Shown piece after piece: positions 46,238-48,491 of a DNA stretch of 64,000 bases; the stretch's first letter is position 1, and every line of letters starts with the position of its first letter. Source of the DNA: Formosimonas limnophila (GTDB lineage: Bacteria; Pseudomonadota; Gammaproteobacteria; Burkholderiales; Burkholderiaceae); assembly GCF_014652675.1 (NCBI RefSeq), contig NZ_BMZG01000002.1, positions 62,001-126,000 of the forward strand. The letters run 5' to 3'. A program made the position numbers and the translations under genes. The notes beneath the pieces were generated by a model. The model worked only from the letters and a program-made list of their open reading frames with translations. It searched no databases and had not been told where the DNA came from.

Positions 46238-46675
46238 TTAGGTTGAAGCGTGTTTCAGAATGCTGTCAATGTAGGCTTGTGCGTCTGGTTCGGTTTTGTC
46301 GCGTTGTGCTTGCCAAAGCGTTTGGCCCAAGCACTCCATGATGATGTGCTGTGCATCGTGTTCGCTGTCGAGTTTTTGTGACAGTTTGGCGTGTGCGGCG
46401 CGAATGCCAGGTGGTTGGTCGATGGAGAGTTGCTCGCTGATGGATAGGTGCATCGACAGGTGTAAAAACGGATTGGTTTGGCCATCTTCGGGTAAAAACT
46501 GAGCGGCTTCGAGGGCTTCAATGGGGCCATTGAGCACTGCGTGGTATTCGGGGTGCTCACGCATCCAGTGTACGGCGATTTGCTCGATGGGTGCGAGGTT
46601 TTCTTGGTGTTTTGATTTATACCATGCGTGGTAAAAAAACTGGCGGACTTCTTGGACTGTGGGGTTGAAGAACAT
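46238..46675 (-). CDS. DUF1841-family protein
   Basis: 145 residues of the betaproteobacterial DUF1841 family: FNPTVQEVRQFFYHAWYK at the start, the strongly conserved NPFLHLSMHLSISEQLSIDQPPGIRAAH in the middle, and HDAQHIIMECLGQTLWQAQRD near the end. The histidine/glutamate-rich centre could bind a metal, but no function is known to me. The ATG at 46675 fits the family start; the frame reaching 46783 overlaps the divergent aroG promoter and is rejected. Confidence 0.8.
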   Translation of the reverse strand: MFFNPTVQEVRQFFYHAWYKSKHQENLAPIEQIAVHWMREHPEYHAVLNGPIEALEAAQFLPEDGQTNPFLHLSMHLSISEQLSIDQPPGIRAAHAKLSQKLDSEHDAQHIIMECLGQTLWQAQRDKTEPDAQAYIDSILKHAST

Positions 46676-46735: not shown

Positions 46736-46764
46736 TTGCAAAATGGCACGATTCAGGTTATAAA
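46736..46764 (+). promoter_or_regulatory. aroG promoter
   Basis: TTGCAA (46736-46741) and TATAAA (46759-46764) with an optimal 17-base spacer. Transcription would start near 46771 and give a leader of about 200 bases before aroG, containing the peptide frame and attenuator described below. Confidence 0.6.
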
Positions 46765-46818
46765 TACGGAAGTTTACACGCAAATGGTTTGCGGTAAAAG
46801 CAAAACAGGATGAATGTC

Positions 46819-46872
46819 ATGCGCCACACACGTGCTTATTTCTTTTGGTACTTTACTCGAACGAGCGGTTGA
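46819..46872 (+). CDS. aroG leader peptide (aromatic amino-acid sensor)
   Basis: A 17-codon frame, MRHTRAYFFWYFTRTSG, with AGGA 8 bases before the ATG. Six consecutive codons (46837-46854) encode Y-F-F-W-Y-F, so all three aromatic amino acids are represented. Its stop (46870-46872) lies inside the first hairpin of the leader. Composition, size, position between a promoter and a terminator, and the aroG gene downstream all fit a regulatory leader peptide. An in-frame ATG at 46810 is too close to the ribosome site. Confidence 0.8.
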   Translation: MRHTRAYFFWYFTRTSG

Positions 46873-46939
46873 GCTGTTCGGTGTGCCACGCGCGTACCTT
46901 CATCTAGCCGCTAACTTGTTTAGCGGTTTTTTATTTTTT
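46858..46939 (+). promoter_or_regulatory. Transcription attenuator upstream of aroG
   Basis: Three segments compete. Hairpin 1 pairs CGAAC (46858-62) and AGC (46864-66) with GCT (46873-75) and GTTCG (46876-80). The terminator pairs CCGCTAA (46908-14) with TTAGCGG (46920-26), followed by TTTTTTATTTTTT. An antiterminator is possible between AGCGGTT (46864-70) and AGCCGCT (46906-12), seven pairs with one G-U. A ribosome stalled on the aromatic codons would leave 46864-70 free to form the antiterminator. A ribosome reaching the stop would cover it and let the terminator form. Confidence 0.8.
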
Positions 46940-46972
46940 GCACTCCACAAACTCCTTTATTGAAAGAACAAC

Positions 46973-48049
46973 ATGCCAAATACCGATGACGTCCGAATCA
47001 AAGAGATTAAAGAACTTGCACCGCCATCACACGTGATTCGCGAGTTTCCACTGACCGAAGAGGTTGCCAAAGTACCCTTTGAGTCGCGTGCTGCCATTCA
47101 CCGTGTGTTGCATGGGGCGGATGATCGCTTGGTGGTTGTGATCGGTCCATGTTCGATTCATGATACGAAGGCCGCACTTGATTATTGCCAACGTTTGCTC
47201 AAGCAGCGCGAAATGTACAAAGACACATTAGAAATCGTGATGCGTGTTTACTTCGAGAAACCGCGGACCACGGTCGGTTGGAAAGGCCTCATCAATGACC
47301 CGATGCTCAATGAAACATTTGACATCAATAAAGGTCTGCGCGTCGCACGTGAGTTGCTCGTACAAATCAACGAAATGGGCATGCCCGTCGCTTGCGAATA
47401 CCTTGACATGATTACACCACAATACATCGCCGACCTCGTGAGCTGGGGCGCGATTGGCGCACGCACCACTGAGTCACAAGTACACCGCGAGCTTGCTTCT
47501 GGCTTGTCATGTCCTGTTGGCTTTAAAAATGGCACGGATGGCAATGTCAAAATTGCTGTTGATGCCACACTCGCTGCACAACGCCCCCACCATTTCCTCT
47601 CAGTGACCAAGGCTGGCCACTCAGCGATTATTTCGACCAATGGCAACGAAGACTGCCACGTCATTTTGCGTGGTGGCAAAAAGCCAAACTACGACGCCGC
47701 CAGCGTTCAAGAAGCCTGTGAAGCTATCGCCAAAGGCGGTTTGGCGCAGCGCGTCATGATTGATGCCTCGCACGCAAACTCTGAGAAAAAACCAGAAAAT
47801 CAAGTCCCTGTTTGTGCCAATATCGCAGAGCAGGTCGCAGGTGGTGATGAGCGGATTTTCGGTCTCATGATTGAGTCAAATATTGTCGGTGGCCGTCAGG
47901 ACTTGGTTACAGGCGCGGCGCTCACCTATGGTCAAAGCGTGACGGATGGCTGCATCGACTGGGAGTCATCAGAAGCTGTGCTGAAAAACCTCTCCGAAGC
48001 GGTCAAAGCACGGCGTGAATTAAAACGCAACAGTTTTACTGAACAGTAA
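46973..48049 (+). CDS. aroG: 3-deoxy-D-arabino-heptulosonate-7-phosphate synthase
   Basis: The entry enzyme of the shikimate pathway, joining phosphoenolpyruvate and erythrose-4-phosphate. This is the class I-alpha (AroF/G/H) type of 358 residues: VVIGPCSIHDTKAALDY near 58, MRVYFEKPRTTVGWKGLINDP near 90, GARTTESQVHRELASGL near 163, and MIDASHANSEKKPENQ near 265. Allosteric specificity (Phe, Tyr or Trp) cannot be assigned with confidence. The upstream attenuator suggests transcription responds to aromatic amino-acid supply. A RidA gene follows after 61 bases. Confidence 0.94.
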   Translation: MPNTDDVRIKEIKELAPPSHVIREFPLTEEVAKVPFESRAAIHRVLHGADDRLVVVIGPCSIHDTKAALDYCQRLLKQREMYKDTLEIVMRVYFEKPRTTVGWKGLINDPMLNETFDINKGLRVARELLVQINEMGMPVACEYLDMITPQYIADLVSWGAIGARTTESQVHRELASGLSCPVGFKNGTDGNVKIAVDATLAAQRPHHFLSVTKAGHSAIISTNGNEDCHVILRGGKKPNYDAASVQEACEAIAKGGLAQRVMIDASHANSEKKPENQVPVCANIAEQVAGGDERIFGLMIESNIVGGRQDLVTGAALTYGQSVTDGCIDWESSEAVLKNLSEAVKARRELKRNSFTEQ

Positions 48050-48110: not shown

Positions 48111-48491
48111 ATGTCTAAAAAAATCATCAGCACCACCAATGCACCTGCCGCCATTGGCCCATATTCACAAGCTGTGAAAGTTGGAGCGCGCGTATTTACT
48201 TCTGGCCAACTCGGTTTAGATCCTATCTCTGGCGAATTAGCACAAGGTATTGAAGCGCAAACGCATCAAGCATTCAAAAATCTTGAAGCGATTTTGAAAG
48301 AAGCGGGCGGCTCACTGGCCAACGTGGTGAAATTCACCTTGTTTTTGACAGACTTGGCTGACTTTTCCACAGTCAACACCATCATGGCGCAATACGTGCC
48401 TGAGCCATTTCCAGCACGTTCGACCATCGGTGTGGCAAGCTTGCCGAAAGGTGGGTTGTTTGAGATTGAGGCTGTCGCGCATATTGAGTGA
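48111..48491 (+). CDS. ridA: RidA-family imine/enamine deaminase
   Basis: A small trimeric protein (126 residues) that hydrolyses reactive 2-aminoacrylate-type intermediates from PLP enzymes. Hallmarks: PAAIGPYSQAVKVGARVFTSGQLG near the start, the conserved arginine in FPARSTIGVASLPKGGLFEIEAVA, and ANVVKFTLFLTDLADF. AAGGAG lies 7 bases before the ATG at 48111. The terminator after it suggests cotranscription with aroG or its own unit. Confidence 0.92.
   Translation: MSKKIISTTNAPAAIGPYSQAVKVGARVFTSGQLGLDPISGELAQGIEAQTHQAFKNLEAILKEAGGSLANVVKFTLFLTDLADFSTVNTIMAQYVPEPFPARSTIGVASLPKGGLFEIEAVAHIE

Follow-up and report, generated by a model that had tools for sequence, protein, structure and literature searches.

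Ribosome-mediated attenuators with mixed control codons are found in E. coli at thrABC (Thr, Ile) and ilvGMEDA (Ile, Val, Leu), where, as in the aroG leader described here, the codons of a single leader correspond to more than one end product of a pathway that branches. The aroG leader differs from these in its pathway, that of the aromatic amino acids, and in standing at the first common step. With the enterobacterial pheA/pheST and trp attenuators it shares a leader with control codons, an antiterminator overlapping the terminator, a U-tract and the rule that a stall means read-through; unlike these, it precedes the entry enzyme and mixes Phe, Tyr and Trp. E. coli aroG is controlled by the TyrR repressor and by Phe feedback (allostery), and we know of no leader attenuator at that gene. 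The enzyme is thus the same and the E. coli structure the closest one solved, whereas regulation is by repressor and allostery instead of by a leader. As mixed-codon attenuators and uORFC-13-1, which lies before a DAHP synthase gene, are already known, the suggestion of the earlier note that the locus may be an undescribed attenuator type was given up.

uORFC-13-1 is a predicted uORF attenuator with Phe codon(s) and a terminator before aroF of Acholeplasma, known from 24 representatives with at least 1 Phe in Acholeplasma and environmental sequences only (PMC8632094). It likewise combines a Phe-coding uORF and a terminator before a DAHP synthase gene, but it has no Burkholderiales members and no Tyr/Trp run has been described for it, while the aroG leader has both. 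Attenuation of E. coli aroF was once hypothesised (Camakaris 1980, per PMC8632094). For the order itself, an RNA-seq study of B. cenocepacia gives 82 short 5'UTRs, some of them attenuated (PMC5688073). No description of an aroG attenuator in Burkholderiales was found in the open-access literature; PMC1262725 cites two papers that might mention one, Vitreschak et al. 2004 and Panina et al. 2001.

The aroG locus and the parts of its leader

The window, i.e., the whole stretch of 64,000 nucleotides that was analysed, is part of contig C2 of a 2.2 Mb Burkholderiales genome close to Hydromonas. The product of 46973-48049 was assigned as AroG based on the NCBIfam equivalog NF006723 (584 bits, cut-off 568), PF00793 and PDB matches, the best of which are E. 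coli Phe-sensitive AroG structures; its protein identity with aroG of Hydromonas duriensis is 84%. It is the sole DAHP synthase gene found in the genome, since the other PF00793 match is KdsA and no type II DAHP synthase is present in the genome. Upstream of the leader, a DUF1841 gene (46241-46675, minus strand) is divergent from aroG, so the terminator at 46906-46928 has no other plus-strand gene to end. Directly 3' of aroG, and in the same orientation, lies a Rid-family deaminase gene (48111-48488); the two may share a transcript and the one attenuator. The leader between these genes consists of a short unannotated frame and RNA, which are flagged here, with the following parts:

46736-46764, plus strand: candidate promoter, -35 TTGCAA (46736-46741), 17-nt spacer, -10 TATAAA (46759-46764); from sequence
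46773-46798, plus strand: predicted hairpin at the predicted transcript 5' end (UUUAC-A-CGCAAA / UUUGCG-GUAAA); from folding
46807-46810, plus strand: Shine-Dalgarno AGGA of the leader frame; from sequence
46819-46872, plus strand: leader peptide frame MRHTRAYFFWYFTRTSG, 17 codons, ATG at 46819, stop codon at 46870-46872; from sequence and relatives
46837-46854, plus strand: control codons Y F F W Y F; from sequence and the aromatic run in relatives
46857-46881, plus strand: possible hairpin 1:2 (46857-46863 with 46875-46881), its loop containing the antiterminator arm; from the stem in L001-L006
46864-46871, plus strand: predicted antiterminator 5' arm AGCGGTTG, within the leader frame; pairs with 46905-46912
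46905-46912, plus strand: predicted antiterminator 3' arm, overlapping the terminator 5' arm; from pairing, compensatory changes and folding
46906-46928, plus strand: predicted intrinsic terminator hairpin (46906-46914/46920-46928), 9 pairs, loop of 5; from scan and compensatory changes
46929-46939, plus strand: U-rich tract of the terminator; from sequence
46973-48049, plus strand: aroG, DAHP synthase, the regulated gene; from NF006723, PF00793 and PDB matches

The promoter, AGGA, 17-codon frame, YFFWYF run, stems and aroG described in the earlier note were thus all recovered within a base or two of where it had placed them. The promoter pair (46736-46764) fails a generic promoter scan; its form TTGCNN-17-TATAAA is retained in six Hydromonas-clade genomes (L001-L006), and TTG-N16..18-TATAA[A/T] occurs ahead of 26/112 leaders as compared to 1 in shuffles. 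The hairpin at 46773-46798 has 11 pairs, and L004 and L005 have a stem of different length at the equivalent position. The frame also has an earlier ATG, at 46810, which overlaps the AGGA; Met-Arg of the leader is retained in L001-L005.

Conservation of frame and helices among relatives

About 450 bases 5' of 210 DAHP synthase genes were screened for a short frame containing four or more Phe/Tyr/Trp within seven codons, followed by an intrinsic terminator not more than 90 nt downstream. Both were found at 104/110 aroG loci of close Burkholderiales relatives, a sample in which Oxalobacteraceae predominate, the window is itself counted and one locus occurs twice (L003 = L031); the leader of L104 falls slightly below the detection threshold. 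Among more distant or reduced Burkholderiales, 6/22 loci were positive. The class survey of 60 loci yielded two positives, namely G070 and one of two loci of G151, and as G151 is a member of the order, counting its loci there gives 7/24 for the distant or reduced Burkholderiales and 1/58 (G070) outside the order. The design is hence patchier in distant families of Burkholderiales, as judged from these loci. As controls, paralogous DAHP synthase loci from the same genome sets (0/18), dinucleotide shuffles of the upstream regions (1/1,100) and reverse strands (1/110) were screened for the same combination. The terminator alone is within chance for the window (1 found, 1.1 expected), unlike the combination of short aromatic frame and terminator, which by these sequence counts is beyond chance.

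G070 (L154), outside Burkholderiales, has the same design with FYRWYYF and CCGCCAG/CTGGCGG, and its leader may be a deep relative or a transferred copy. The family members L025, L117 and L122, with small genomes (1.7-2.3 Mb), are without the leader and have a common coding-like segment 5' of aroG (GATATTAC...GG...AATTTGTTTTTT). A search of viral contigs returned no relatives of the leader.

An arm with GCGG, complementing the CCGC of the terminator 5' arm, is nearly always present in the 3' part of the leader, and it starts 8-20 nt past the last aromatic codon in every leader where an arm was found. Helix statistics were calculated on 25 diverse rows, hand-chosen out of 73 distinct arm sets. 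Standard pairs make up 97.8% of the cells of the terminator helix and 87.4% of those of the antiterminator, with compensatory change at 4/9 pairs and both-sided change at 3/7 pairs, respectively; the arms were anchored on GCGG/CCGC via a pairing search, which biases the pair counts towards pairing in the core. GCGG is invariant in the antiterminator arm, and the compensatory positions lie outside this core, e.g., where the Hydromonas clade has U-A in place of C-G (CCGCTAA/TTAGCGG vs CCGCCAG/CTGGCGG). Both helices score above shuffles and slid controls, the covariation score of the terminator being matched by 0/500 shuffles and that of the antiterminator by 1/500.

The stem of the hairpin at 46857-46881 is retained in L001-L006 with a variable loop, and its score against composition-matched shuffles gives P 0.02-0.06 in the Hydromonas clade only. 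No counterpart above chance was found elsewhere in Burkholderiales, and an order-wide hairpin suggested by eye (TTCCA/TGGA, TCTC/GAGA) failed re-pairing and composition-shuffle tests. The stem proposed in the earlier note at 46858-46880 thus stands marginally within the clade and not across the order; going by its sequence, the hairpin is possibly real. As for the rest of the proposal, the earlier note had named loss of the short frame or stems in relatives as fatal to it; what was found instead is the frame at 104/110 loci and compensatory changes in both terminator and antiterminator.

Alternative folding and the proposed mechanism

Only the RNA between ribosome and polymerase was folded, before the 3' arm of the terminator exists, and the front edge of the ribosome was assumed to lie 15 nt past the first P-site base. 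With an A-site stall at Y10, F11, F12, W13, Y14 or F15, the computed probability of the antiterminator is 0.99-1.00. A ribosome at the stop codon covers the arm, and the probability there is 0, by construction from the assumed footprint. Across 110 relatives, the computed mean is 0.90 at aromatic codons and 0.00 at the stop. Stalls at earlier codons would have the same effect, so that specificity must come from the run itself. When the full leader is folded at equilibrium, the terminator results every time, and the antiterminator is weak in the window if upstream RNA is free to pair around the ribosome; such whole-leader models were set aside in favour of folding the RNA ahead of the ribosome, which is the usual model. 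The folding supports the leader spacing, and stalling itself is predicted.

In the proposed mechanism, RNA polymerase would start near 46771, and a ribosome would then translate the leader of 17 codons. Where charged tRNA for Phe, Tyr or Trp is scarce, the ribosome would stall within YFFWYF with its front edge just short of the arm AGCGGTTG. By pairing with 46905-46912 while the second half of the terminator is still to be transcribed, the free arm (46864-46871) would let transcription continue into aroG. If all three are plentiful, the ribosome would reach the stop at 46870 and cover the arm, the terminator (46906-46928) would form, and the transcript would end near 46930-46940. The hairpin at 46857-46881 may retain the arm once the ribosome is released.

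A ribosome-mediated transcription attenuator very probably controls aroG. The leader has a short frame with Shine-Dalgarno site and stop, predicted to be translatable and conserved in relatives; its six consecutive aromatic codons represent an enrichment for products of the pathway; the intrinsic terminator lies between leader and aroG and serves no upstream gene; and, computed with the assumed footprint, the antiterminator is freed at a stall and covered at the stop. Comparison of the sequences shows that the leader frame, control codons, both alternative helices, spacing and gene context are conserved, and we infer transcription and translation of the leader, stalling, termination and a response to each amino acid. 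Strong support for the central claim of the earlier note, a peptide-leader attenuator controlling aroG, thus comes from conservation, compensatory changes, the controls and the folding.

Three other explanations of the same locus were weighed. An AT-rich spacer might yield Phe/Tyr codons by chance next to an unrelated terminator, as the chance-level count of terminators in the window would allow, but this is refuted by conservation, with 104/110 positive loci among close relatives and only 1/1,100 among shuffles and 0/18 among paralogs, and its probability is negligible. The terminator and antiterminator by themselves would also suit a riboswitch platform, or a protein-dependent terminator with the aromatic frame being secondary. 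The conserved part, however, is the aromatic frame with its spacing, and no conserved aptamer-like core was seen; no family of Rfam 15, including Phe_leader and Trp_leader, matches the leader at the gathering cut-off, and none credibly below it, which makes such a device extremely unlikely. A low-threshold Rfam scan gave only two weak antisense matches, taken as chance. Action mainly in trans, of the leader RNA (as an sRNA) or of the peptide, has a precedent in the rhizobial leader peptide peTrpL, which acts in trans (PMC7298713). Against this, the leader adjoins aroG, and what leaders have in common is aromatic content and spacing, whereas their peptide sequences differ (FYFWHFTRTGGLSVR vs FFTGFFYFSNSNPKAVE), as expected for a cis device; a trans-acting leader is hence very unlikely.

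Amino acids that may be sensed and meaning for Burkholderiales

The runs of 112 leaders contain 479 Phe, 214 Tyr and 41 Trp codons, with Phe in all 112 runs, Tyr in nearly all and Trp in 38/112. For the attenuator at aroG, the chance is about even that charging of Phe-, Tyr- and Trp-tRNA jointly sets the flux into the shikimate pathway via the single DAHP synthase gene, with trpE keeping a Trp-only leader. Trp limitation would then act via the one Trp codon of the aroG leader. It is also quite possible, if somewhat short of an even chance, that the same attenuator is effectively a Phe/Tyr sensor whose lone Trp codon is incidental, Trp starvation having little effect: 74/112 leaders have Phe/Tyr only, Trp occurs in just 10/75 loci of the Oxalobacteraceae-dominated set, and trpE in the genus probably has a separate leader, one that carries three Trp codons. 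This is countered by the Trp codon in 7/7 Hydromonas-clade sequences (six genomes) and in 14/22 other Burkholderiaceae-type loci, and by the antiterminator probability of about 1.0 computed for a stall at that codon. The earlier note's view that all three aromatic amino acids are sensed is compatible with the geometry of the model; most Oxalobacteraceae leaders carry no Trp codon. A link between Trp in the leader and a single DAHP synthase was dropped, Trp being frequent also in the leaders of genomes that have a paralog.

Short frames with three Trp codons were seen at trpE in the genus (RWQRLRWRLGSWR, RWQFLRWYLERWP and RWRRLHWSIGFWR; L216-L219, L222), that of the present genome upstream of 165237 on the minus strand of its contig C7 (G000:C7) and the others in congeners. 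In L216 and L217, a CCGCTTT...AAAGCGG stem with a T-run lies 3' of this frame, which, from its sequence, is probably a separate Trp leader; no leader was seen at pheA in the genus. A mixed leader at the common step and a Trp-rich one at the Trp branch are expected if each senses what its gene serves.

The aroG leader is a well-supported addition to the classical attenuators, possibly a trivalent one. It predicts that aromatic flux is set without E. coli-type control of aroG across much of Burkholderiales, e.g., in Bordetella, Collimonas, Herbaspirillum and Janthinobacterium, with control codons that differ by lineage (Phe/Tyr or Phe/Tyr/Trp). If true, a trivalent leader would be an order-level alternative to TyrR-type control of aroG.
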